Positions 1,610-38,949 of a stretch of 38,949 nucleotides of DNA are shown piece by piece. Under the pieces are notes generated by a model. It was not told the origin of the DNA and did not search any database. It was given only the letters and a program-made list of their open reading frames with translations. Numbering within the stretch: the first letter of the stretch is position 1; every line of letters begins with the position of its first letter. Source of the stretch: Spirochaetota bacterium (lineage in GTDB: Bacteria > Spirochaetota > UBA4802 > UBA5368); assembly GCA_004297825.1 (NCBI GenBank), contig SCSX01000059.1:1-38949 (forward strand), written 5' to 3'. A program made the translations under genes and the position numbers.

Positions 1610-3010
1610 CTATGAAGGGCCCGGTGCGGGGTCCTGGTGAATTTTCCGCGGCGGACGCCGTCTTCTCCGGCGTTTACGCCGGGGAGCCCCCGTCGTTTCG
1701 CGCGATTCGGTTTCCTGCGTGCCCCCGTGGGCTGCCGGCGCGTCCGGGGAGAGCGCCGCGTCCGACGAGCCCGCGGAGTCGCGCGGCTCGCGGGCCCGGT
1801 CTTTCCAGTACTTGAGGCTGCCCGCGTTTCCGCCGGGAAGCCCCGACAGGATTTCGAAAAAGAGGAGCGCATCGGCGAAGTAGGGGCTGCGGATGAAATT
1901 GCCCTCCGAGCGCCTCGCGCGCCTTCCGGCGTTAACGCGCGAAAACGTCCACTGGCGTGCCGCGGTATTACAGATTCTGTCCCACTCCTTGCGGGGGAGC
2001 CGGAGCCTCTGCACCATATCCTGCATTTTCTCCTGGAGTGAGATGAACACGTCCTGATAGTTCGTCTTTTCAGCCTCTTCCCCCACCGCTTCGATGATGA
2101 AGTCCCAGAGAAGCGCGGTGAGCAGCACGGAGGTGGATATGTCTTCGCCCCGGGCACGGCGGCGGTCCACCGCATCGAGGCGTGTTCGCAGGGAGCTCTG
2201 GTGGCGGGTGTCGGTGAGCTCGGGGATCCAGTGTTTGAGCAGACCCCAGTCGTTGAGATTGGTGAAGGTCCGCGCCGATGCGCCGGATCGGAGTATCTTG
2301 TAAACCTCCTCGAGAAGCCGGTTCGCGTTCGCCTCTTTAATCAGGTGCGCGCAGTCATTAACGGCCTTGAGCTCTCGCCGGGGGAGTGAGAATCCCAGCT
2401 GTGCGCAGAAGCGCCCGGCCCGGATGATCCGAACGGGGTCCTCGGCGAAGCGTTCCGCGGGGTTTCCGATACAGCGAAGGGCTTTTTTTGAGAGGTCCGC
2501 CAGCCCGCCGGTATAGTCGACCAGGGACGAATCGCCGCTGTCGAAATAGAGCGCGTTCACGGTGAAATCCCGCCTGAGGACGTCCTCTTCTATCGTGCCG
2601 AACACGTTGTTGGCGGCGTAGCGCGGCCCCTGGACCTCCTCCGGGTCGACCAGGGCCCGGAACGTGGCGACCTCCACGAACCGGTCGTGCGAAACATAGA
2701 CGTGCGCGAGCCGGAAGCGCCTTCCTATCAGGAAACACCTCTTGAACAGCCTCTTGATCTGGTTGGGCCGCGCATCGGACACGATATCGAAATCCTTGGC
2801 CTTTTTATCGAGCAGTATGTCGCGAATGCATCCCCCCACCAGGTATGCCTTGTAACCGTTCCTGCGCAGGCGGTCCAGGATGGCAAGCACCTCCGGTTCA
2901 ACGCGTCCGCGCGACATCTTATGATTCTTTGCCGGCACTATCACCGGGTATTTTTTCTTAAATAATGACCACATGCTCTTTATGCCTGTCGCGTATGAAT
3001 TTTCCGCCAT
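1610..3010 (-). CDS. pcnB: Poly(A) polymerase I / CCA-adding-type nucleotidyltransferase
   Basis: A 466-residue class II nucleotidyltransferase that should add 3' adenosines to RNA, marking it for decay, or CCA to tRNA. The head domain has GG (59-60), RD (63-64) and the catalytic DFD (73-75). The motif CFLIGRRFRLAHV (92-104) is typical of bacterial poly(A) polymerases rather than CCA enzymes. Residues from about 400 are low in complexity and end in an arginine-rich tract (about 441-452), like the basic tail of E. coli PAP I. The start is uncertain: M1, M13 and M32 are all possible and none has a strong ribosome site. M32 lies just before the family's usual beginning. The gamma-CA gene follows 6 bp downstream. 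PcnB is preferred over Cca because of the RRFRLAHV block and the tail. Confidence 0.85.
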   Translation of the reverse strand: MAENSYATGIKSMWSLFKKKYPVIVPAKNHKMSRGRVEPEVLAILDRLRRNGYKAYLVGGCIRDILLDKKAKDFDIVSDARPNQIKRLFKRCFLIGRRFRLAHVYVSHDRFVEVATFRALVDPEEVQGPRYAANNVFGTIEEDVLRRDFTVNALYFDSGDSSLVDYTGGLADLSKKALRCIGNPAERFAEDPVRIIRAGRFCAQLGFSLPRRELKAVNDCAHLIKEANANRLLEEVYKILRSGASARTFTNLNDWGLLKHWIPELTDTRHQSSLRTRLDAVDRRRARGEDISTSVLLTALLWDFIIEAVGEEAEKTNYQDVFISLQEKMQDMVQRLRLPRKEWDRICNTAARQWTFSRVNAGRRARRSEGNFIRSPYFADALLFFEILSGLPGGNAGSLKYWKDRAREPRDSAGSSDAALSPDAPAAHGGTQETESRETTGAPRRKRRRRRRPPRKIHQDPAPGPS

Positions 3011-3197
3011 GTATCGGACATCCGGCGGTCATGAATGCCCGACACGGGCCGGTGGTTCGATAAAACGGGTAAAACCTGCCCGATTTATCGCACGGCAGGT
3101 GGAATCTCGATGGCAAGGGTAGACAGTATACCATGAAATTGCCACTACAATTTGCATTATAGGGGATTTGATACGCGGTAAAATTAATGAGAAAGTA

Positions 3198-3225
3198 TTG
3201 ACAAGCGACCGACCCCCCGTACCAT
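3198..3225 (+). promoter_or_regulatory. Sigma70-type promoter for the 59-residue membrane protein
   Basis: Consensus -35 TTGACA (3198-3203) and a weaker -10 TACCAT (3220-3225) with a 16-bp spacer. An alternative -10, CATTAT, lies 3 bp further on. It stands about 75 bp before the small gene at 3299. Confidence 0.5.
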
Positions 3226-3298
3226 TATCCCCCGAAACGGCGATGGCCCCTCGGGGCGCTGCGGACATCGCAATAAAGGTCATTTCACGAGGTAGCGA

Positions 3299-4193: not shown

Positions 4194-5084
4194 ATGAATC
4201 GAATCACCGTATGCCTGAGTATCGTGCTGTGTCTTGTATTTTCAACCGGGCTGGCCTTCGCGGGCGGCGATTCAGATGCGTGCGCCACAAAGTACCCGAT
4301 CGTGCTTTCGCATGGAATGGGTGCCCATGCCGACAACCTTGGGATAGGCTACTGGTACAACATCCCCGGAACGCTCGAGGATGAGGGCGCCGACGTCTAT
4401 ATCTCGGACCAGATGGCAATGCAGGGAACGGCGTACCGCGCGCAGGAGGTCAAGGCGTACGTGCAGTACGTGCTCGCCGTTACGGGAAAATCGAAAGTCA
4501 ACATCGTGGGCCATTCCCACGGGACCCTGGATACCCGTTACATGATATCGAACCTGGGCATGTCGAGCAAGGTCGCGAGCTATACCAGCATCGCCGGTCC
4601 GCATCGCGGAAGCTCGGTGGCCGATGTCGTCCTTGGCGTGCTTCCCGACAGCGGGGAGTGGCTGGTTTCGGGGCTCGTGAACACGATCTATGACTGGATT
4701 TTCGGCGACGCGTCGAACAGCCTTCAGGGTGCGCGCGACCTCTCGACGAGCTACATGAAAAACACCTTCAACCCCAATACCCCGAACATTTCCGGCATCT
4801 ACTACCAGAGCTGGTCGGCCAAGATCAAGCTTATTACCGCCGACTTCCTGATCACGGAGCCCACGTGGCTGCTCATGAAATTCTACGAGGGCGACAACGA
4901 CTGCCTCGTATCGGTGACCTCGTCGAAGTGGGGGACATGGCGCGGCATCCAGGAAGGCGCGTGGTGGTGCGGCGGCGTATCGCACTTCAATATCGTCGAC
5001 CAGTTCCTGGGGATTACGCCCGGCTTTGACGCCCCGCAGTTCTACGTGGATGTCGTGAGCGAGCTAAAAAACAAGGGCTATTAA
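4194..5084 (+). CDS. lip: Secreted triacylglycerol lipase (family I, Lif-dependent type)
   Basis: A 296-residue alpha/beta hydrolase that should cleave triacylglycerols outside the cell. Residues 1-23 are a signal peptide ending AFA. The mature protein begins near residue 24 and soon reaches the oxyanion segment YPIVLSHGM (34-42). The nucleophile is S108 in GHSHG, the acid probably D236 in GDNDCLVSV, and the base H264 in GVSHFNIVD, with D269 placed like the calcium ligand of Pseudomonas lipases. C237 and C259 could form the conserved disulfide. The length and motif order fit family I.1/I.2 lipases, which need a membrane-bound foldase. A candidate foldase gene lies at 6807-7796 on the other strand, with lnt between. 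AGGAGG precedes the start, and a hairpin follows the stop. Confidence 0.9.
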   Translation: MNRITVCLSIVLCLVFSTGLAFAGGDSDACATKYPIVLSHGMGAHADNLGIGYWYNIPGTLEDEGADVYISDQMAMQGTAYRAQEVKAYVQYVLAVTGKSKVNIVGHSHGTLDTRYMISNLGMSSKVASYTSIAGPHRGSSVADVVLGVLPDSGEWLVSGLVNTIYDWIFGDASNSLQGARDLSTSYMKNTFNPNTPNISGIYYQSWSAKIKLITADFLITEPTWLLMKFYEGDNDCLVSVTSSKWGTWRGIQEGAWWCGGVSHFNIVDQFLGITPGFDAPQFYVDVVSELKNKGY

Positions 5085-5233: not shown

Positions 5234-6826
5234 ATGAACCGCTTTTCCCCGGCAGGATTTTACCCATACCTCTGGTCCGTGTGCTCGGCCTTCGCGGCTG
5301 CCCTGGCGCTCTCGTTCGAGTGGGCATACCCTCTCGCGTTCTTGTGCATGGTCCCTTTATTCGGCACCCTGTCGCGCGCGGGGGGCCTCCTCCGCGGAGC
5401 GGGCATCGGCTTCACCTGGGGCTTCGTGTTCGCGGCCGCCGTGGGGTACGGAGTTTTTTTCGCCCTTCACGATCACTATGGTAAATCGGCATTTTTTTCG
5501 CTCCTGTTCATGACCGGTTTTGTCCTTGTGCCTGCCGGCATCCTTTACGGGATCGTGGGCGCCGCGTGCCGGTTCCTTTACCGGGATACCATGGCGTTTT
5601 TCGCGCTGGTCGCGCCGTCGGTGCTGGTACTGTGCGAATACCTGCGCGAGATACTGCCCGGCATGATTCCCTGGGGCGGCCTGGGGTATTCCCTGACCGC
5701 GAGCCCCCTGCTACTGCAGACCGCTGACACCTGGGGGCAGTATGGACTTTCATGGATCCTGTTCTGCATAAACGGGCTGGTATGGGCCGCGATTTCCGGC
5801 ATGGTTCGGTCAAGGCGCTTAACCGGGGGGGAGGACGCGTATCGGACCCCCCAATCTTCCATTAAAGCGCTTCTTCCCGCCGGTATCGCGGTACTGGCGC
5901 TGGCTCTTCTCTGTACGTACGGGGGCATTGCCTTGAACCGGTGGCGATCCCCGGAACGGGCGGGTGGCGGGGGAGCCCCGGGCATCCAGGCGGTCATCGC
6001 CCAGGCGAGCCATGGGCAGCGCGAGCGCTGGAGGGACGACTCGTTCTATGCCCGGCTTGAGTCCTACCTGGCGCTTTCGGGAGCGCCGGCCGGGGAGGGG
6101 CGCATGATCGTATGGCCGGAAACGGTGCTCAATTCACCGCGGCGCCTGCAACCCGCGCTTTTTGCGCGGCTGGCCCAGGCGGCGGGGGAGAACGGCGTGC
6201 TTTTATCGGGGGGTGTGCGCCACGCCGCGGGAGGCGAGTTTAACGCGGTATGGACGATTTCGGGCGATGGGGAAACATCGTCGTACGACAAGCATATACT
6301 TCTCCCCTTCGCGGAAACGGCACCTCTCGAGAGCGGCGGGCTGGGGGCCTACTACGAGGCGCCGTCCAGGTTCGAACCGGGAACGGGACCGCTCACGGTG
6401 AGCACAGTCCACGGAAAGGTTGGAACTTCGATATGCTTTGAACTGTTATACGGCGACTTTATCCGGCAATCGGTGCGCGGAGGCGCGGGGATACTGGTAA
6501 ATGTTTCGAACGACGCGTGGTTCGGGGATTCGAATATGCCGCGTATCCACGCGCGCGCCGCGGCGATGCGGGCGGTGGAGGAGCGGCGCTACGTGCTGCG
6601 CGCGTCCAACAGCGGGATATCGGCGGTCGTCGCGCCTTCCGGTGACGTCTTTGCGCAGACTGCGCTGTTCTCCCGCGAGGCCCTGCGCGCGGAGATTCAT
6701 GCGCTGGACACTGATACGGTATTCGCGCGCGCGGGCTATTGGGTGGTGTATGCGTCCATCCTGATCGTCATGGGGGCCCTCGTGCGTATGCTCGCGCGCG
6801 GTGGGGCTACCGGGACCCCTTCATGA
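5234..6826 (+). CDS. lnt: Apolipoprotein N-acyltransferase
   Basis: An inner-membrane enzyme that moves an acyl chain from phospholipid to the N-terminal cysteine of lipoproteins, the last step of lipoprotein maturation in diderms. With this start it has 530 residues, close to the family norm. Several membrane helices fill about residues 5-215, then a nitrilase-like periplasmic domain carries the triad: E296 (WPET), K353 (YDKHILLPF) and C401 (SICFELLYGD). NVSNDAWFGDS is also a family signature. One last helix lies near the C-terminus. The start is unclear: an in-frame TTG at 5189 would add 15 residues, and neither has a good ribosome site. ATG 5234 is chosen because family members begin just before helix 1. 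Its 3' end overlaps the convergent Lif gene by 20 bp. Confidence 0.92.
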   Translation: MNRFSPAGFYPYLWSVCSAFAAALALSFEWAYPLAFLCMVPLFGTLSRAGGLLRGAGIGFTWGFVFAAAVGYGVFFALHDHYGKSAFFSLLFMTGFVLVPAGILYGIVGAACRFLYRDTMAFFALVAPSVLVLCEYLREILPGMIPWGGLGYSLTASPLLLQTADTWGQYGLSWILFCINGLVWAAISGMVRSRRLTGGEDAYRTPQSSIKALLPAGIAVLALALLCTYGGIALNRWRSPERAGGGGAPGIQAVIAQASHGQRERWRDDSFYARLESYLALSGAPAGEGRMIVWPETVLNSPRRLQPALFARLAQAAGENGVLLSGGVRHAAGGEFNAVWTISGDGETSSYDKHILLPFAETAPLESGGLGAYYEAPSRFEPGTGPLTVSTVHGKVGTSICFELLYGDFIRQSVRGGAGILVNVSNDAWFGDSNMPRIHARAAAMRAVEERRYVLRASNSGISAVVAPSGDVFAQTALFSREALRAEIHALDTDTVFARAGYWVVYASILIVMGALVRMLARGGATGTPS

Positions 6827-17538: not shown

Positions 17539-17651
17539 CAGGAATTCGGGACGCTACGTGCCCGTGCCAAACATATTAATAACCGATCCCTTCCCATAAT
17601 AAACTTACCCCTCTCGCGTTTCCGGCTCTTTCCTTTTTGTGTACATAAAAA

Positions 17652-17684
17652 GAACGTAGTGAAACGTAGCAAAGCGTAAGTGTC
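17652..17684 (+). repeat. Left arm of a perfect 33-bp inverted repeat (island boundary)
   Basis: It begins GAACGTAGTGAAACGTAGCA and ends CGTAAGTGTC. Its exact reverse complement lies at 19916-19948, 33 of 33 bases. After two mismatches the similarity continues as GGGGG on both sides. The unit holds two direct ACGTAG copies. The arms enclose 2.3 kb that includes the AT-rich gene. Confidence 0.9.
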
Positions 17685-18797
17685 CCGGGGGTGTCCGGGG
17701 GCGTTGTTCGGGCAAGTAACCGGCATTATACCGTTGTCTGGCTATATTTTGCACCGGTTTCGCGTAACTCCCTTTAGCGAATGGTGGGGCGGATCTGGGG
17801 GTACGCATGGCGCCCAACCGGCCAAGGGGTTTGCGAGTCACTTGTAAGAAGGCGATCCCCGGATGTTCTCCAGGTGCGCTTGGCGACCAACCAGCAAAGG
17901 GATTGCGAGGGTATGCCGTGGTCAAGACTTGCAGGATAATCGGCGGTGGCATGAATTGTGCTACCGCATGGCTTTTTCAGGGGACCCCTGGGAAGGGGAT
18001 GCTTTCACGAGGGAGAAAGGCCTTCGCGGCCTCTCTCCCTCGTGGCTCCCACTCTCCCCGCTCCTCAAGCGGCGGAGGGCCTAACGCCCGAACTCGCCTC
18101 ACCGGCTGTGACGTCCATGGATGGACTAATGCCGGGGACGCGCACGGATGCGCGTTTGTCCCCGGCCGCCGGACTCGCCTCAAACAAGCGGGCTAATACG
18201 GTTTGCCGCTACGCGGCGATCTAGGTCTTGTTTCCTGTTCCGGATGCCCCGAGTACTGCTTTCATGTGCTCTTCCACGCTTCCGTGGACGTGTTGCTGAC
18301 AAGGCTTTGCTTATCGGGAACCGGGAATGAACGCTGATGAATGTGAATTTTAGGGCTGAGAATCGATCACACGTGGTCAGCGCCATCTTCCAATACGTCG
18401 CTCCCTGAGCCCGTGGAAGGGCGGCTGGTCAGAATCAAGAACGAGTCGGGATGCCTCTGAATGATATCTCTTTCCATATTACTTAAAAGTAATGGATATT
18501 GAATCGGCGGGCAGGGGAAAAGCGGTTGACTTTGGTATTCTTGTATTACAAGGTTGAGTGCATATAGCGACTGTACTTTGCTTCCCGGGCGCGGGGGCTG
18601 GCCATCCGACTTTCTAGGAATTCCCGGACAAGGTGAGCCATGCGGCGATTATGGTGAAGTGGTGGCGTTTTAGAAGACTCGCAGACCGTTGGTGGGCTGG
18701 GGGAGTATGATGGTTTTTGCACGATGCGACGCGTAAACAGCAGGCGCAGCGTCAGGGTATGGTTTGACGTTGTACGCAATGGCAGCAAATGAAACCT
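17685..18797. other. Long non-coding stretch inside the repeat-bounded island
   Basis: About 1.1 kb with no believable gene. Open frames here run through hairpins and have no ribosome site or family signal. It holds repeat R2 copy A (17994-18318). After that comes mixed-composition DNA with a small inverted repeat ATTACTT-AA-AAGTAAT near 18480, inside a wider ATATCC/GGATAT context, and two TTGACT/TTGACG boxes (near 18533 and 18764) without a good -10. Nothing else is recognisable. Confidence 0.6.
17994..18318 (+). repeat. Dispersed structured repeat R2, copy A
   Basis: It starts AGGGGATGCTTTC, then a first hairpin (18006-18015 with 18035-18044; inner stem AGGCC/GGCCT and loop TTCGC), a second GC-rich hairpin, the box CGCCCGAACTCGCCTC, a 60-base nested palindromic insertion (with GCCGGGGACGCGC pairing GCGCGTTTGTCCCCGGC), CTCAAACAAGCGGGCTAA, a GCCGC/GCGGC hairpin with TAGGTCTTG, and the end box AAGGCTTTGCTTATCGGG. 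Copies B (21044-21410) and C (34700-34974) have the same block order on the minus strand. Confidence 0.85.
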
Positions 18798-18807
18798 GGA
18801 GATAAAT

Positions 18808-19743
18808 ATGCCATTATTCCATATACAAGACAAACAAATGACTTTAGCAAAACCAATCAATTTTAAGCTTGAAAAAGATATTCAAATTCTCATCGAAAAT
18901 AATCTTCAAAGGGTTTTTAATTGTCAATATATTGCAACTGAGTTTTCGACAGGAAGCGAACATGCAGGTAGAATTGATACTTTAGCTTTATCAGAAGATG
19001 ATAATCCTGTAATTATTGAGTACAAGAAAGTTGAATCATCGGAATTAGTTAATCAAAGCTTATATTACTTATCATGGATTAAAGATCATAAAGGAGATTT
19101 TCAAATCGCTGTCAATAAAGCATTAGGAAAAGATATTGAAGTAGATTGGAGCGACGTAAGAGTAATATGTATAGCTCCTGGTTATAAAAAATATGACCTT
19201 CATGCAGTACAAATGATGGGAGCAAATATTGAATTATGGCAATATCGTTTGTACGATAGTGAATCAATATATTTAGAAGAAATATTTAGAAGAAATGCCG
19301 GGTTAGCAATTTCATCTGCAATTGAACAAGGAAAAAATCCAGTAATGGTTGAGGCTGGGAAAAAAGCTGCTCTAACGAGATTAACGGGAACCTATACATT
19401 TGATGAACATCTTGAATCCGCTGATGAAAATATTAAAGGTTTAGTAATGGATTTAAGAGATTACATTTTAAGCATTGATGAAGCGGTTGAAGAAAGTCCA
19501 AAGAAATTTTATATTGCATATAAGGTTTCACAAAACTTTGTTTGCGTAGAGATTAAAAAAAATAAAACTACACTTTTCTTAAAAATAAATCCGAAAGAAA
19601 TAATAATTCCACGCAATGGTAGAGATGTTTCGGGTATTGGACATTATGGAACAGGAAATTTCGAATTAAACATATCAAGTGCAAAAGAGTTGGAAGAATC
19701 AAAAGAATATATAAAAAAAGCATTTGAAACAATTGGCGGATAG
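18808..19743 (+). CDS. PD-(D/E)XK nuclease-like protein with C-terminal DUF5655 domain
   Basis: A 311-residue protein. Residues 20-100 show a nuclease-like core: E45, then GRIDTLAL (D57), then VIIEYKK (E71 and K73), the D-(9-15)-ExK pattern of PD-(D/E)XK enzymes, followed by NQSLYYLSWI as in NucS/DUF91-like proteins. Residues 200-308 (YILSIDEAV, FYIAYKVSQNFVCVEIKK, GHYGTGNFEL) match the DUF5655 domain often fused to this nuclease. It may cut nucleic acid; a defence or genome-maintenance role is inference. The gene is AT-rich (about one third G+C by eye) with A/T-ending codons, in sharp contrast to its neighbours, so it was very probably acquired. GGAG lies 6 bases before the ATG. It sits between the 33-bp inverted repeats. 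Confidence 0.82.
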   Translation: MPLFHIQDKQMTLAKPINFKLEKDIQILIENNLQRVFNCQYIATEFSTGSEHAGRIDTLALSEDDNPVIIEYKKVESSELVNQSLYYLSWIKDHKGDFQIAVNKALGKDIEVDWSDVRVICIAPGYKKYDLHAVQMMGANIELWQYRLYDSESIYLEEIFRRNAGLAISSAIEQGKNPVMVEAGKKAALTRLTGTYTFDEHLESADENIKGLVMDLRDYILSIDEAVEESPKKFYIAYKVSQNFVCVEIKKNKTTLFLKINPKEIIIPRNGRDVSGIGHYGTGNFELNISSAKELEESKEYIKKAFETIGG

Positions 19744-19770
19744 CTCGCCACAGCGTAACGGGAGATAAAT

Positions 19771-19980
19771 ATGACGGATGATATGCCAATATCAAAAAAT
19801 ATTGGGATAAAAGAAGCAGGGAGACGCTCTTCAAGCCTTGTGTTGTGGACAAATCATCAATTCCGCCAGTTTGCCTGTATCAAAATACGAAAAAACCATA
19901 CCCGCCTCCCCCCAAGACACTTACGCTTTGCTACGTTTCACTACGTTCCATTCCTGAACACAACACCCCATATGTCCTGA
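19771..19980 (+). CDS. Possible small ORF after the nuclease-like gene (69 codons)
   Basis: It starts 27 bases after the nuclease-like gene with the identical context GGAGATAAATATG seen at that gene's own start (18798-18810), so ribosomes may well enter. The first 45 residues (MTDDMPISKNIGIKEAG onward) match nothing I know. The rest is encoded by the right 33-bp inverted repeat and beyond, so the natural gene may have been longer and truncated by the repeat. It may not be a real protein. Confidence 0.3.
   Translation: MTDDMPISKNIGIKEAGRRSSSLVLWTNHQFRQFACIKIRKNHTRLPPRHLRFATFHYVPFLNTTPHMS
19916..19948 (-). repeat. Right arm of the perfect 33-bp inverted repeat
   Basis: Exact reverse complement of 17652-17684. 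Flanking bases on the two sides do not show an evident target-site duplication. It overlaps the end of the small ORF at 19771. Confidence 0.9.
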
Positions 19981-20533: not shown

Positions 20534-20809
20534 ATGAGCGATCTTAAAAAATACGTGAGTAAAAGGAAAACACACGATGCTGAATTTGCCCGTGGATACG
20601 AGCAGGGTTTTCAGGAGTTCCGAATAGGCGTGCTGCTGCGGCAGGAGCGGGAAAAAAGCGGTTTAACCCAGGAAGAGTTAGCCAGAAAAATTCGAACGAC
20701 GAAAAGCGCCATCTCGCGCATAGAAAACCATTCGGAAGACATTAAGCTCTCAACCCTGTCGAAAGTAGCAACGGCATTGGGTAAGAATCTTTCGATAAGA
20801 TTACTGTAA
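20534..20809 (+). CDS. XRE-family HTH regulator, orphan HigA-like antitoxin
   Basis: A 91-residue DNA-binding protein. Residues 30-88 form a Cro/C1-type helix-turn-helix: RQEREKSGLTQEELARKI, then TTKSAISRIENHSEDI with recognition-helix SAISRIE, then TLSKVATALGKNLSIRLL. The N-terminal 28 residues (AEFARGYEQGFQEFRIG) are typical of antitoxins of the HigA/RelE-partner kind, whose toxin gene normally lies immediately upstream. Here no toxin ORF is present between 20310 and 20530 or downstream, so it appears orphaned. GAGGAG lies 5 bases before the ATG, and a good promoter of its own precedes it. It could instead be a stand-alone repressor. Confidence 0.8.
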   Translation: MSDLKKYVSKRKTHDAEFARGYEQGFQEFRIGVLLRQEREKSGLTQEELARKIRTTKSAISRIENHSEDIKLSTLSKVATALGKNLSIRLL

Positions 20810-20932
20810 ACCGCGGTACTTGCGGCCTATAGCGGATAAAGTTCGTCTGCACGTGCTCACCATGGATGGCCGAATGCCGCATAAATCTCTGCACCCGAAT
20901 CGTGAGTCATGGAGCATTTATCTATTGACATG

Positions 20933-20970
20933 CTTCACCCTCCCCTAACCCCTCCCATCGAGGGAGGGGG
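20933..20970. repeat. CTTCACCCTCCCC hairpin repeat, copy 1
   Basis: CTTCACCCTCCCCTAACCCC followed by TCCC, ATCG and GAGGGAGGGGG-type pairing. The same unit appears inverted at 38855-38891. It lies in the 630-bp gap between the XRE gene and the GH16 gene, which otherwise contains only repeat R2 copy B. Confidence 0.75.
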
Positions 20971-21043: not shown

Positions 21044-21410
21044 CCCGAAAAGCAAAGTCTTGTTGGCAATACGTCCCGGAAATTACGGTATAAGAGGTGA
21101 AGGCAGTACTCGGGGCATTCGGAATTGGAAGCAAGACCTAGATCGCCGCGGAAACAGCAACCAGTTTTAGCCCGCTGCGATGGACAGGATGTCCAAGTGG
21201 CCCGCGCGAATAAGCCGTCCTGGCTTGCGCGGGCAGGCGCACGTCCTGTGCGCACCCGGGCGCGCACAGGAGGTCGCGTCTGCGCCCGGCTTTGAGCCGA
21301 GTCCGGCATAGCCGGCGAGGCGAGTTCGGGCGTTAAGCCGTCGCGCCGCCTGAGCGACCGCGAGAGAGAGGGGGGGCGGCCCCTCTCTCTCTCGCGTGAA
21401 AGCATCCCCT
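21044..21410 (-). repeat. Dispersed structured repeat R2, copy B (inverted)
   Basis: Read on the minus strand it begins AGGGGATGCTTTCACGCGAG. Its first hairpin pairs 21385-21396 with 21359-21370 (12 bp, all AG/CT), different in sequence from copy A but equally complementary. The box AACGCCCGAACTCGCCTC follows, then a GCCGGCTATGCCGG hairpin, an extra insertion of roughly 130 bases rich in palindromes, GCGGGCTAA, GCGGCGATCTAGGTCTTG, ATGCCCCGAGTACTGC (shared with copy A) and AGACTTTGCTTTTCGGG. Confidence 0.85.
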
Positions 21411-21441
21411 GCCCGGGGGCGGCAACGAAAATCCATCCCAC

Positions 21442-24505: not shown

Positions 24506-24642
24506 CCCATATCACAAAAACTGCCTCAGAAGGCCCCCTAAATCCCCCGGAGGGGGACTTCAATAATCGGCAGAATATGCATTTTCTGGCACTGGCGGAT
24601 GTCGTTGCCCCCCCGCCGGGGGGTATGGGGGGTGTTTTTTAA
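24506..24642 (+). repeat. Dispersed repeat R1, copy 2 (in a likely 5' UTR)
   Basis: CCCATATCACAAAAACTGCC start, TCCCCCGGAGGGGGA hairpin, CGGCAGAATATGCATTTTCT centre, CCCCCC/GGGGGG hairpin, then GTGTTTTTT. The final G-run hairpin and six Ts look like an intrinsic terminator 32 bases before the CMD gene, so the repeat may attenuate that operon. Confidence 0.85.
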
Positions 24643-27620: not shown

Positions 27621-27780
27621 CCCATATCACAAAAACTGCCTTAGGAGGCCCCCTAAATCCCACTTCGACAAGCTCAGTGCAGCGCCCGGAGGGGGACTTC
27701 AGCAATCGGCAGAATATGCATTTTCTGGCATTGGCAGATGTCGTTGCCCCCCGCCGGGGGGTGTTTATTAACTTGTGGGT
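27621..27780 (+). repeat. Dispersed repeat R1, copy 3 (interrupted)
   Basis: It has the same start (CCCATATCACAAAAACTGCC), centre and end (AACTTGTGGGT) as copy 1. Between AAATCC and CCCGGAGG it carries 24 extra bases. It follows the permease gene and lies tail-to-tail with the gene at 27812. Confidence 0.85.
27661..27684. repeat. 24-bp insertion within R1 copy 3
   Basis: CACTTCGACAAGCTCAGTGC followed by AGCG. Removing exactly these bases restores the sequence of copy 2 (AAATCC joined to CCCGGAGGGGG). The CACTTCGACAAGCTCAGTG core is a short repeat I recognise as common in many bacterial genomes. Confidence 0.8.
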
Positions 27781-28568: not shown

Positions 28569-29729
28569 ATGGTTATTAAAAGACTGGCAATGTTCATCCT
28601 GTGCGTCGCGGTCGGTACCGCGTTCGCCGGGTGCAAAAAGGGTTCCGGCGACACCGTGAAGATAGGCGCGATATTCGCCGTAACGGGAGGGGCGTCGTAC
28701 CTGGGCTCGCCCGAGGCGAGGACCGCGCAGATGCTCGTGGACGAGATCAACGACAAGGGCGGCATCAACGGCAAACAGGTCGAGCTTGTCATCAAGGATT
28801 CCGAGGGGAACCCCGAGAAGGCGATCTCCTTCGCGAAGCAGCTCATAGAAGAGGAAAAGGTATTCGCCATCATAGGGCCCTCCACGAGCGGCGAGACCAT
28901 GAAGATCAAGAGCCTGTGCGAGGAGTCGAAGATGCTGCTCATCTCCTGCGCCGCGGCGGAGATCATCGTGAACCCGGTCGCAAAGTACGTCTTCAAGACC
29001 CCGCAGAAAGACAGCCACGTGGCCCGGATGATATTCGAGACCATGAAGAAAAAGGGCATTGCGAAGATCGGGATAATATCGGACAACACCGGCTTCGGGG
29101 CCGCGGGCAAGGAACAGCTCGAAAAGATCGCGCCCGAGTACGGCGTTGCGGTTCTCATCAGCGAGGTGTACAACATGAAGGCGACGGACCTGACCGGGGT
29201 CCTCGCCAAGCTCAAGGGACAGAACGTGCAGGCGGTCATAAACTGGTCCATCGTGCCCGCGCAGGCTATAGTCGCGAAGAACATGAAGCAGATCAAGTTC
29301 GAGGTGCCGCTTTTCCAGAGCCACGGCTTCGGCAACCTCAAGTACGCGGAAGAGGCGGGCAAGGCGGGAGACGGCATTATCTTCCCGGTGGGCAGGCTCC
29401 TCGTCGCCGACCAGCTTCCCGACACCAACAAGCAGAAGGTGCTGCTCCAGAAGTTCAAGAAGGACTACGAGTCGCGCTTTAAGGAAGACGTGAGCGCCTT
29501 CGGGGGCTACGCCTACGACGCGCTCGTCCTGCTTTTCGAAGGGATGAAGAAGGCGGGCGTGAACGACCGGGAGAAGGTGCGCGACGCGATCGAGCAGCTC
29601 CGCGACATTCCCGGGACCTCCGGCGTATTCAGCCTTTCGCCCCAGGACCACAACGGGCTCGGGATGAACTCGCTCGTGATACTCACGGTCAAGGACGGGA
29701 AATTCGTACCGTACGAAAAACTCGACTAG
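28569..29729 (+). CDS. livJ: Liv-type ABC transporter substrate-binding lipoprotein
   Basis: A 386-residue type 1 periplasmic binding protein. The lipobox AFAGC gives C22. The mature start KIGAIFAVTGGASYLGSPE and the repeated markers VDEINDKGGINGKQVELVIKD, IIGPSTSGETM and GIISDNTGFG match the branched-chain amino-acid/amide receptor family. It delivers the ligand to LivHM in the inner membrane. The adjacent aryl-CoA ligase suggests the ligand could be an aromatic acid or amino acid and not leucine, but this is inference. The start at 28569 is fixed by GGGGAGGAG 3 bases upstream. A 9-bp intercistronic hairpin follows the stop. Confidence 0.88.
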   Translation: MVIKRLAMFILCVAVGTAFAGCKKGSGDTVKIGAIFAVTGGASYLGSPEARTAQMLVDEINDKGGINGKQVELVIKDSEGNPEKAISFAKQLIEEEKVFAIIGPSTSGETMKIKSLCEESKMLLISCAAAEIIVNPVAKYVFKTPQKDSHVARMIFETMKKKGIAKIGIISDNTGFGAAGKEQLEKIAPEYGVAVLISEVYNMKATDLTGVLAKLKGQNVQAVINWSIVPAQAIVAKNMKQIKFEVPLFQSHGFGNLKYAEEAGKAGDGIIFPVGRLLVADQLPDTNKQKVLLQKFKKDYESRFKEDVSAFGGYAYDALVLLFEGMKKAGVNDREKVRDAIEQLRDIPGTSGVFSLSPQDHNGLGMNSLVILTVKDGKFVPYEKLD

Positions 29730-29740
29730 AACGACCATGA

Positions 29741-29762
29741 GCCGGGGGCACGCGCCCCCGGC
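29741..29762 (+). terminator. Intercistronic hairpin between livJ and livH
   Basis: GCCGGGGGC / GCCCCCGGC, loop ACGC, 9 perfect pairs, 9 bases before the livH ATG and with no T-run. It probably stabilises the upstream livJ message or reduces livH translation, giving excess binding protein, as in other ABC operons. It is not likely to stop all transcripts. Confidence 0.6.
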
Positions 29763-29771
29763 CCGGCTTCC

Positions 29772-30662
29772 ATGAACCCCGAACAGATACTACAGTATAT
29801 CCTCTCCGGCGTCACGATGGGCAGCGTCTATGCCGTCACGGCGATAGGCTTCAACATCGTCTACAACACGACCGGCATTATCAACTTCGCACAGGGCGAG
29901 TTTCTCATGCTCGGGGGCATGACGGCGGTCACGCTCGCGGCCTTCCTGCCGCTTCCCCTGGCCATAGCGTGCGCGGTCGCCCTCACTGCGGGGATTGGGG
30001 GGCTTATCGATTTGGTCATCATAAGGCGTCTGAAAAACCCGTCCGTGCTCATGATGATCATCGTGACCATAGGGCTGTCCATTCTCATCCGCGAAACCGC
30101 GCTGCATGTCTGGGACGCCAAGGTGCGTTCGCTTCCATTTTTTACCGGGAGCGAGGTCTCTTCTATAAACATCCTGGGCGCCTATATCTCGCCGCAGGTC
30201 CTGTGGGTGCTGGGTGCCTGCGCGGTTATCGTGACGGGGCTCACCGTGTTCTTCCGGAGCACCACGACCGGGCGCTCCATGCGCGCATGCTCGTCCGACC
30301 GCATGGCCGCAAGCCTGTGCGGCATCGACGTGAAATCGATGGTCACGCTTTCGTTCATACTGAGCGCTGCCATAGGCGCGCTGGCGGGGTGCGTGATTTC
30401 CCCCATCACCCAGACCCAGTACGACAGCGGCACCTCGCTCGCCATCAAGGGATTCACCGTGGCGATCCTCGGGGGGCTGGGCAACAGCATGGGCGCGGTC
30501 GCCGGGGGGATCATTATTGGGCTCCTGGAGGCCTTCAGCATTTCCATTCTCCCGCTCGCGTACATGGACGCGATGGCCATCGGGATCATGATACTCATCC
30601 TGTTCTTCCGGCCCAGCGGACTCTTCGCGCGCAAGGGCGAAGCCGCCCTCAAGGAACATTGA
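29772..30662 (+). CDS. livH: Liv-type ABC permease, LivH
   Basis: A 296-residue inner-membrane subunit. It opens LQYILSGVTMGSVYAVTAIG and has NTTGIINFAQGEFLMLGGM, the standard LivH helix signature, and GGLGNSMGAVAGGIIIGLLE near the cytoplasmic coupling region. With LivM it forms the channel. No ribosome site is seen before the ATG; translation may be coupled or kept low by the hairpin. Its stop overlaps the livM start by 1 base (TGATG). Confidence 0.92.
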   Translation: MNPEQILQYILSGVTMGSVYAVTAIGFNIVYNTTGIINFAQGEFLMLGGMTAVTLAAFLPLPLAIACAVALTAGIGGLIDLVIIRRLKNPSVLMMIIVTIGLSILIRETALHVWDAKVRSLPFFTGSEVSSINILGAYISPQVLWVLGACAVIVTGLTVFFRSTTTGRSMRACSSDRMAASLCGIDVKSMVTLSFILSAAIGALAGCVISPITQTQYDSGTSLAIKGFTVAILGGLGNSMGAVAGGIIIGLLEAFSISILPLAYMDAMAIGIMILILFFRPSGLFARKGEAALKEH

Positions 30663-31750
30663 TGAAACCGCGCGGCTACATTCCCGTCGCGGTCCTCGCC
30701 GCGGTCCTTGCGGCCTTCCAGCTCCTGGTGAGCTTCACCGGCCAGGAATTCTTTCTCACCCAGCTCACCATGTCGGCGTACTACGTGCTCGCGGTCATGG
30801 GGCTCTGCCTCCTCATGGGCTACGCCGGACAGATCTCCCTGGGGCACGCGGCGTTCTTCGCGATCGGCGGGTACACGGCGGCGGTGCTTGGGACATTCAA
30901 CGCCGCGCCGTACCAGGACGGGGCCGTCGTGCGGCTCCTTTTAAAAACCGGTCTCGCATCGGCGAGCGACGCGGCGACCGTGCATGTCTCGCCCTGGGCC
31001 GCCCTTGGGCTCGCGGTGCTCCTCGCCCTGGCGGTGTCCGTGGTCATAGGCGTCCCCATACTCAGGCTCCGGGGGCATTACCTGGCCATGGCGACGCTCG
31101 GTTTCGGGCTCATCGTCCATCGTATCGTCCTGGGCACGCATATTTTCGGCGAGGCCGACGGCATATCGGACCTCCCGGCCTTTCCGCTGTTCGCGGGGCT
31201 TTCGGTGAGCGGCCGTCCCGAGCTTCGGGTGTCCAATTACTACATCGCCTGGACGATCGTCGTCCTGGGCATGGCGCTCTTGCTTAACCTCGTGAATTCC
31301 CGGCCGGGAAGGGCGTTGCGCGCCATCCATGACAACGAGGAGGCCGCGCGCGCGATGGGCGTCGATACCGCCCGGTACAAGCTCAACGTCTTCGTGCTGA
31401 GCGCCGTGTTCACGGCCGTGGCCGGGGTATTCCTCACGCACTTCAACGCCGGAATAGGGCCCGCCGAGGCGGACGTGATGAAATCGGTACGCTACGTCGC
31501 GATCGTGGCGGTGGGCGGCATGGCGAACCTGTGGGGGGCGCTCGCGATGGGCCTGTCACTGAACTACATCTCTCTGCGCGGCTACCTGGGAAGCTACGAC
31601 GACGCCTTTTTCGGCGCGGTGCTCATCCTGATCATGATCTTTGCCCCGGAGGGCCTGCTGAACGCGGAGCGGCCCCGCGCGATCCTGGGGCAGGTCAAGG
31701 CGCTCGCCGCGCGGATGCGGAAAAAAGGCGGGGAGGGCGGTGCGCCATGA
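30662..31750 (+). CDS. livM: Liv-type ABC permease, LivM
   Basis: A 362-residue inner-membrane subunit, with about ten helices. YYVLAVMGLCLLMGYAGQIS, LGHAAFFAIGGYTAA and FLTHFNAGIGPAEADVMKSV are LivM marks. VGGMANLWGALAMG lies near the end. It starts inside TGATG at the livH stop and ends overlapping livG by 4 bases (ATGA), so the operon is translationally coupled. The start at 30662 is chosen for that overlap; the same frame extends upstream only as shadow of livH. Confidence 0.92.
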   Translation: MKPRGYIPVAVLAAVLAAFQLLVSFTGQEFFLTQLTMSAYYVLAVMGLCLLMGYAGQISLGHAAFFAIGGYTAAVLGTFNAAPYQDGAVVRLLLKTGLASASDAATVHVSPWAALGLAVLLALAVSVVIGVPILRLRGHYLAMATLGFGLIVHRIVLGTHIFGEADGISDLPAFPLFAGLSVSGRPELRVSNYYIAWTIVVLGMALLLNLVNSRPGRALRAIHDNEEAARAMGVDTARYKLNVFVLSAVFTAVAGVFLTHFNAGIGPAEADVMKSVRYVAIVAVGGMANLWGALAMGLSLNYISLRGYLGSYDDAFFGAVLILIMIFAPEGLLNAERPRAILGQVKALAARMRKKGGEGGAP

Positions 31751-32503
31751 GCCTTCTCGAGGTGAGAAACGTGAGCCGCTCTTTTGGCGGGCTCAGGGCG
31801 GTGGACGGCGTGGGCTTCGCGGTGGAGGAGCACTCGATCAAGGCCGTTATCGGACCCAACGGAGCCGGAAAGACCACGCTCTTCAACCTGATCGCGGGAA
31901 GCCTTCCCTGCGAGTCCGGGGAAATTTATTTCAAGGGGAAACCCATCCAGGGACTGCCCTCGCACAAGATCGCGCACATGGGCATCGCCCGCACCTTCCA
32001 GAACATCAAGCTCTTCGCGCACATGACCGTGATCGAGAACATCATGGTGGGGCGGCACACGCGCGCCCGCACGGGGTTCGGGGGCGCGATGCTGGGGCTG
32101 CCTTCCTCGCGGAAAGAGGATCGGCGCATGCGCGAACAATGCAGGGAGGTCGCGCGGACCCTGGGGCTCGCGCACGAGGCGGACAAGGAGGCCGGGAGCC
32201 TCGCATTCGGCAGGCAGCGCCTGGTCGAGTTCGCGCGCGCGCTCGCGATGGAGCCGGCGCTCCTGTTGCTTGACGAGCCCGCGGCGGGCCTCAACATCCA
32301 CGAGACCGCCGAGATCGGTCAGGTGATCAAGGATATCCGCGACCGCGGCCTCACGGTGCTTCTCATCGAGCACGACATGTCGCTCGTGATGGGGATATCG
32401 GACGACATCACGGTGCTCGGTTCCGGGAAAAAGATCGCGCAGGGGCCGCCCGCCGCGATCCAGGCGGACCCCGAGGTGATAAAAATCTACCTTGGAGAGG
32501 ACG

Positions 32504-32511
<8 letters not shown>
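31747..32511 (+). CDS. livG: Liv-type ABC ATPase, LivG
   Basis: A 254-residue ATP-binding subunit. Walker A is GPNGAGKTT, Walker B is LLLLDEPAAGL, the switch histidine is in LIEHDM. The signature segment reads AFGRQRLVEFARAL where LivG usually has SYGQQRxLEIARAL, a mild change. ARTFQNIKLF is typical of LivG. ATG overlaps the livM stop (ATGA). Confidence 0.92.
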
Positions 32512-33238
<727 letters not shown>

Positions 33239-33249
33239 GAGGGGTCACG

Positions 33250-34545
33250 ATGTACAATCCCGAATTCGAGTCCATGCCGCGCGACGAGATCGAGCAGCTC
33301 CAGACCGAAAGGCTGCAGACCACGCTCAACCGCGTCTACCGGAGCGTGGCGTTCTACCGCCACACCTTCGACGCGATAAAGTTCGACGTGGACAGCGTGC
33401 GAAGCGTCCGCGAAATCCGGCGTCTCCCCTTCACGACGCGGGAAGACTTGAAGAAGAGCTACCCCTACGACATGTTCGCCGTTCCCCTGAAAGACATCGT
33501 ACGCGTGCATTCGTCGTCCGGCACGACCGGGCAATCCGTCGTCGTGGGTTACACGAAGAACGATATCGCGCACTGGGCGCAGGTCACGGCGCGCGCGCTT
33601 GCCGCGGCCGGGATCAACGAGCACGACTTCGTGCAGATCGCGTTCGACTACAGCCTGTTCACCGGGGGCTTCGGCTTTCATTACGGGGCCGAGCGCATCG
33701 GCGCATCGGTGATACCGTCGTCGGCGCACGGCAACATCGCAAAGCAGATACGCGTCATGAAGGACTACAAGACCTCGGCGCTCCTGTGCACGCCGAGTTA
33801 TGCCATGGAGATCGCCTATAAGATGAAGGAGATGGGCATACACCCGGAGACCCTCAAGCTCCGCTGCGGGCTTTTCGGCGCCGAGCCCTGGGGCGCGGCG
33901 CTCAGGGCGCGCCTCGAGGAGATGCTCCACATAGACGCCTTCGACGTGTACGGGCTTTCGGAGATCATGGGGCCCGGCGTGTCGAGCGAGTGCGTCCATA
34001 AAAACGGGCTGCATGTGAACGAGGACCATTTCATCGTCGAGGTGATCGATCCGGCGACCTGCGAGCCGTTGCCCGCGGGCGCGCAAGGCGAGCTTGTGTT
34101 CACGACGATCACCAAGGAGGGCTTCCCGCTCATCCGCTACCGCACCGGCGATCGCGCCTCGCTCATGGAAGGGACGTGCCCCTGCGGGCGCACCCTCGTG
34201 CGGATGAGCCGCGTCGCGGGACGCACCGACGACCTCATCATCTACAAGGGGCTCAAGGTCTACCCCGTGCAGATCGAGGAGGCGCTCCTCAAGGCCGAGA
34301 ACGTGAAGCCGCGCTACATGGTCTACCTCGACCAGGAGGACGGAATCGACGCCATGGAGATACGGATCGAGGTGTCCGATGCGCTCTTCAACGACGAGTT
34401 GAAGAACCTGCTCGCCGTAAAGAACAAGGTGGCGCGGATACTCGAGGAGGACCTGGAGCTCGTCGCGAAGATCACGCTCGTCGAGCCTGGTTCCCTGAAA
34501 GGTGATGACGGCGGGAAGTCGCGCGTTGTTGACCGGCGTGCCTGA
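33250..34545 (+). CDS. paaK: Phenylacetate-CoA ligase family (aryl-CoA synthetase)
   Basis: A 431-residue AMP-forming ligase that should activate phenylacetate or a related aryl or acyl acid to its CoA thioester through an adenylate. The ATP loop is SSSGTTGQSVVVGYT, the second motif YGLSEIMGPG, the third DLIIYKGLKVYPVQIE, and RTGDRASL carries the conserved aspartate. A cysteine pair CPCGR precedes the C-terminal domain, as in many PaaK proteins. AGGAGGGG lies 6 bases before the ATG. As the last gene of the Liv operon it suggests that the imported compound, or its keto-acid degradation product, is an aryl carboxylate. No indolepyruvate oxidoreductase genes are in the window. Substrate uncertain; family sure. 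Confidence 0.88.
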   Translation: MYNPEFESMPRDEIEQLQTERLQTTLNRVYRSVAFYRHTFDAIKFDVDSVRSVREIRRLPFTTREDLKKSYPYDMFAVPLKDIVRVHSSSGTTGQSVVVGYTKNDIAHWAQVTARALAAAGINEHDFVQIAFDYSLFTGGFGFHYGAERIGASVIPSSAHGNIAKQIRVMKDYKTSALLCTPSYAMEIAYKMKEMGIHPETLKLRCGLFGAEPWGAALRARLEEMLHIDAFDVYGLSEIMGPGVSSECVHKNGLHVNEDHFIVEVIDPATCEPLPAGAQGELVFTTITKEGFPLIRYRTGDRASLMEGTCPCGRTLVRMSRVAGRTDDLIIYKGLKVYPVQIEEALLKAENVKPRYMVYLDQEDGIDAMEIRIEVSDALFNDELKNLLAVKNKVARILEEDLELVAKITLVEPGSLKGDDGGKSRVVDRRA

Positions 34546-38854: not shown

Positions 38855-38949
38855 CCCCTCCCTTGACGGGAGGGGTTAGGGGAGGGTGAAGCGCTTATTG
38901 CAATTGAGTGCTTTCCACCCCCACCCGGCCTCCCCCATCAAGGGGGAGG
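38855..38949. repeat. Hairpin repeats at the window end
   Basis: 38855-38891 is the inverted second copy of the CTTCACCCTCCCC unit seen at 20933 (CCCCTCCC, TTGAC, GGGAGGGG, then TTAGGGGAGGGTGAAG). After about 37 plain bases the window ends inside another one, CCTCCCCCATCAAGGGGGAG with a final G (38929-38949). No gene is visible here. Confidence 0.7.

Follow-up and report, generated by a model that had tools for sequence, protein, structure and literature searches.

A DUF5655 nuclease gene of low G+C content as a probable stranded integron cassette in a spirochaete genome

The window, the whole stretch of 38,949 nucleotides that was analysed (contig SCSX01000059.1 of assembly GCA_004297825.1), belongs to a bacterium of the phylum Spirochaetota. 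FlaA, a spirochaete flagellar protein that marks this group, was found in 78 of 79 sampled genomes of that phylum and in none of 14 controls. On the forward strand, positions 18808 to 19743 encode a protein of 311 amino acids. The first-pass annotation had described a PD-(D/E)XK/DUF5655 gene of low G+C here, and both parts of that description hold: the C-terminal ~110 residues match DUF5655 (Pfam, 1.6e-10), and the gene has a GC content of 31%, against about 61% in its surroundings, with a GC3 of 0.18 compared to 0.83–0.89 in the neighbouring genes. The gene lies between the arms of a perfect 33-bp inverted repeat, at 17652–17684 on the forward strand and 19916–19948 on the reverse strand.

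The PADLOC profile PDC-S18 matches the nuclease over its full length (residues 2–309, 3.4e-105). In an AlphaFold2 model with a pLDDT of 87.7, the N-terminal domain (residues ~21–154) is predicted to adopt a PD-(D/E)XK fold of the NucS/Shedu type, with NucS/EndoMS as the closest match, while the C-terminal domain (residues ~196–311) appears closest to YdhG/DUF1801-like proteins (Z ~10). The residues Glu-22, Glu-30, Asp-57, Glu-71, Lys-73 and Gln-83 are invariant across 60 sequences of relatives, and therefore the active site of the nuclease looks intact. The modelled product is best read as an orphan PD-(D/E)XK nuclease of the NucS/Shedu type that ends in a DUF5655 domain. Judging from its family, its fold and the neighbours of its relatives, the most likely role of the protein is that of a single-gene effector against phages or plasmids. 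Our literature search found no paper that names PDC-S18 or DUF5655, and hence no known anti-phage test. Of the earlier proposal of a nuclease with a defence role, the resemblance to nucleases is thus confirmed and the role is plausible in view of the profile match and the fold, the anti-phage activity itself being a conjecture.

A scan of species genomes listed 595 pattern matches, at least 573 of which (counted as contig stretches) are relatives of the nuclease; among the matches listed they span many bacterial phyla and one archaeon. Some are located in or beside type I restriction-modification operons, as in the hsdM-hsdS-DUF5655-hsdR arrangement of Acinetobacter. No conserved partner gene emerged, the neighbours of the relatives being mixed, with a few type I restriction-modification, TIR, Fic and Schlafen-type genes, and a narrow single-protein scan of IMG/VR returned no viral relatives. 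Cassette boundaries were sought among the relatives by scoring the complementarity of the flanks, and a score of at least 10 was reached at 7 of 84 loci, whereas swapped flanks predict 1.2 such loci. Because the top score, that of locus L098, reflects its long inverted repeat, six of the seven remain as cassette candidates. Clear cassette boundaries are visible by eye at L136, from Nitrospira, and at L100, from Spirochaetia. The gene has flanking repeats at 13 of 78 loci, compared to 5 of 128 control segments; they are mostly direct, and inverted only in the window, L098 and L114.

L098 is the closest relative among the matches listed (70% identity), in a Margulisiibacteriota metagenome-assembled genome (MAG), where the gene sits between two Omp85-type genes. 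Its inverted repeats, 106 bp long and 97% identical (4842–4947 and 5971–6076), directly adjoin the edges of the gene and have no further copies in that genome; a folding test rejected them as attC hairpins. In L114, from a Myxococcales MAG, the gene is placed between inverted copies of a 97% repeat (293–731 and 2819–3257), which carries a short ORF resembling a gene for a 23S intervening-sequence protein. A homologue in genome G010, of the same order as the source genome, is split at about codon 172 over two contig ends (L093:1–700 and L094:1–200), and the bases flanking the split resemble, by eye, a group II intron.

The 5' boundary of the low-GC segment in the window is sharp. GC content drops from 57% to 31% directly after an integron-type GTT at 18769, 39 bp upstream of the ATG. 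The 59 bp at 18719–18777 on the forward strand resemble the right half of an attC site, the left half being missing, and end in GAC-GTT-GTACGC with the R' box GTTGTAC. Compared with the right halves of attC sites from other contigs of the genome, this stretch scored 28.5 against the site on C68 (shuffle maximum 16.5), 21.5 against that on C69 (shuffle 14.0) and 23.5 against that on C58 (shuffle 20.0; an equal score of 23.5 occurs at one unrelated position of the window), with p<0.001 in each case. With the C68 site as query, no other place on either strand of the whole window scores as high. The R' box deviates from the consensus GTTRRRY and is identical to that of the first cassette on C58, with which the window cassette also shares its first 12 bases, GTTGTACGCAAT.

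The proposed gene cassette runs from 18770 to 19759 on the forward strand at about 31% GC. Its 3' end is less distinct: directly after the stop codon, at 19747–19759, stands a candidate R'' relic, GCCACAGCGTAAC, which is weak (p ~0.05), and no full attC was found 3' of the nuclease gene. The complementarity score of the window boundary is 4, below the strict criterion applied to the relatives, and the attC half shows no hairpin fold (z of -0.2 compared to -2.5 and -2.4 for intact attC sites). A generic attC scan beside the gene, combining R'/R'' with a stem score, was too weak to be informative. No intact attC or attI exists at the locus, nor an intI beside an attI, and neither a transposase nor a recombinase was seen in the segment, in agreement with the earlier remark that a transposase is lacking. 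Because the upstream attC lacks its left half and the downstream attC is missing entirely, the window locus is a relic.

The sequence upstream of this boundary connects the locus to other parts of the genome. The roughly 1.1 kb described earlier as non-coding DNA with a copy of the repeat R2 does contain R2, to which two details can be added: R2 (17985–18716, forward strand) is a dispersed repeat at the level of the genus, and between it and the gene lies the 59-bp attC-like stretch. R2 occurs at about 20 places in 0.9 Mb sampled and is also present in the same genus. Its 3' part (~18320–18716) is the leader that precedes attI and cassettes on C68 and C88, where AT-rich genes follow directly downstream. 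On C68 the leader leads through the junction GGTTGCGGGTAAGAGGAGTT/ATAAG into three consecutive cassettes, in which the opening R' box is complementary over 8–10 contiguous bases to the R'' after each cassette's last gene. C88 carries an identical attI (the same 20 bases as on C68) with a different first cassette gene. A tyrosine recombinase, of which C58 carries the 3' end, stands there before an attI that differs from this site at two positions; AT-rich cassettes come next, with an attC between them that folds into a long hairpin. The best model for the recombinase fragment is the integron integrase (1.5e-10), and it reads towards attI, as intI does in the integrons of Treponema (PMC3607928). 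No integrase above the family cut-off was found anywhere in the genome; tyrosine recombinases are present on C33, C38 and C47. At another locus (L247, G000:C69:93813), a lone attC-like site accompanies about 1.5 kb of AT-rich DNA within surroundings of 66% GC, and this is probably another stranded cassette.

The arms that drew attention to the locus cannot be a product of chance, since they are inverted at 33 of 33 bp, as reported in the first-pass annotation, and no such pair arose in 100 dinucleotide shuffles. Their inverted similarity extends to 55 bp at 87% (17637–17691 and 19909–19963). A third copy of the 33 bp, with one mismatch, stands solo on C68 at 40141, adjoining a RelE-type toxin gene. 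In an alignment of the three copies conservation continues beyond the 33 bp, with TTGTGT upstream in all three and GGGGG downstream, so that the 33 bp represent the most conserved part of a short repeat, some 60 bp long, rather than a terminus. The earlier reading had counted occurrence at many unlinked sites against a bond between the repeat and the segment; the genome-wide search returned only the one solo copy on C68. The repeat is absent from 197 related genomes (allowing up to three mismatches), from viral contigs (exact degenerate pattern) and from plasmids (71-bp blastn). No direct duplication indicative of a target site lies beside either arm, no second copy of the 2.3-kb arm-to-arm unit was found in the genome itself, and in an empty-site comparison synteny was broken on both sides of the locus in the genomes G001–G007 of the same genus or family. 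Comparison of the 33-bp repeat with attC and attI gave no convincing match (in eight comparisons the lowest p was 0.02, for attC3). As far as the evidence goes, the arms would belong to a short, independent repeat that is present here twice, and would be incidental.

The window contains several other elements. The small ORF noted earlier inside the segment (19771–19980) is probably spurious, because it has no family match and its end arises from reading through the repeat arm. A HipB-like helix-turn-helix gene with no obvious toxin partner (20534–20809) is situated between the right arm and a second R2 copy, which lies inverted outside the arms (21044–21420, reverse strand). Positions 28900–34193 are 71% identical over 5.3 kb to contig C79 of the same genome (L047:1–5304), and an R2 copy follows both; to judge by the sequence, this similarity is an old duplication. 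Another dispersed repeat, common to C58 and C41, occurs at 815–940, 24533–24639 and 27685–27780, and a 38-bp intergenic repeat at 20932–20969 and 38855–38892 is also found on C41 and in the sister genome. Scans of the window for tRNAs and Rfam families gave no matches.

Taken together, the composition break at the GTT, the matches of the attC half, the leader shared with C68 and C88, and the integrase, attI, cassettes and attC on C58 lead us to read 18808–19743 as an orphan cassette. We hypothesize, with good though not full confidence, that this spirochaete genome carries the decayed platform of an integron, lacking an integrase, and that the gene is a cassette stranded there. Circular cassettes would have been inserted at an attI beside the R2 leader by an integrase that probably acted in trans or has since been lost, and a 3' fragment of this integrase appears to survive on C58. 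A later deletion may have brought the leader up against an attC right half, so that no cassette but the DUF5655 gene remained; the 3' attC of this cassette would have decayed. If the gene is expressed at all, the leader promoter presumably drives it. A more far-reaching version, in which a single trans-acting integrase stocked dispersed, integrase-less copies of leader and attI with AT-rich cassettes and the 33-bp arms made platform plus cassette separately mobile here, strikes us as unlikely.

The arms invite a different explanation, namely that the 33-bp inverted repeats are the termini of a non-autonomous transposon, in which the nuclease is a passenger and which depends on a transposase elsewhere. 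The perfect inverted pair, the AT-rich gene inside it and the missing transposase are all compatible with this, as are the long inverted repeats at the gene edges of L098, and inverted repeats that bracket integron pieces are known from the ends of Tn402 and from IMU/MIC units. However, homology runs past the 33 bp in all three copies, one of which is solo, and neither a target-site duplication nor a second unit was found. Moreover, 1.1 kb separates the left arm from the gene, the enclosed leader DNA is found elsewhere without arms, and around other relatives the repeats are unrelated or direct. We regard the transposon as improbable. What survives of the earlier passenger proposal is a foreign gene moved by machinery encoded elsewhere; the arms as element ends do not. 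Still less can be said for an invertible segment, in which a recombinase acting on the arms would switch the nuclease gene on and off by phase variation. The arms do have the length of recombination sites and tyrosine recombinases exist on three other contigs, but none is encoded at the locus and the third arm on C68 stands alone; promoter and gene would also invert together, so that no obvious switch results. We consider phase variation very improbable, and the same observations, together with the extension of the repeat past 33 bp, speak against the invertible or excisable segment suggested at first.

The arms play no part in a further alternative, plain horizontal gain by illegitimate recombination into repeat-rich intergenic DNA, with the attC-like half as a chance resemblance or an unrelated repeat. 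Decayed repeats do indeed make up a mosaic in this region, the cassette is weakly delimited at its 3' end, and the attC half lacks a functional hairpin. On the other hand, the three attC matches fall exactly where the composition changes on the 5' side, and two other cassette loci have the same leader, which leaves plain gain with a small chance of being correct.

If the gene is a stranded cassette, a speculative inverted-repeat element is replaced by a known capture system, the integron. In a 2013 survey, integrons were found among spirochaetes only in Treponema (PMC3607928); relative to that survey, the locus would represent an integron remnant in a spirochaete outside Treponema. It would also establish a link, in several phyla, between integron cassettes and a widespread, uncharacterised candidate defence nuclease (DUF5655/PDC-S18, on at least 573 contig stretches). 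Because tested anti-phage genes are known from the integron cassettes of Vibrio (reviewed in PMC12409362), the family is a concrete candidate for testing.

Comparison with known systems places the protein between several families. With PDC-S18, a single-gene phage defence candidate for which the literature search returned no tested function, it agrees over the full length and no difference was seen. The best fold match is NucS/EndoMS (Z of 13.2 over 106 residues, with 22% identity to the nuclease domain of Pyrococcus abyssi NucS), but this likeness is limited to the predicted nuclease domain, and the NCBIfam equivalog model for NucS gives 13.7 bits, far below its cut-off of 216. The modelled PD-(D/E)XK domain also resembles that of Shedu SduA (Z of 9.5 to the E. 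coli protein), with a sub-threshold match to Pfam SduA_C (15.5 bits against a cut-off of 27), whereas the other domain is DUF5655/YdhG-like and not the Shedu N-terminal domain. As to the locus, it shares with integron cassettes and CALIN (cassette arrays without integrase) the GTT point, the attC-type sequence and an AT-rich single gene in cassette orientation, and the source genome has, like the Treponema-type chromosomal integrons (PMC3607928), an intI that reads towards attI on C58. In contrast to both, the window holds half an attC and a single cassette with no integrase at the locus, and the leader copies are dispersed over several contigs.
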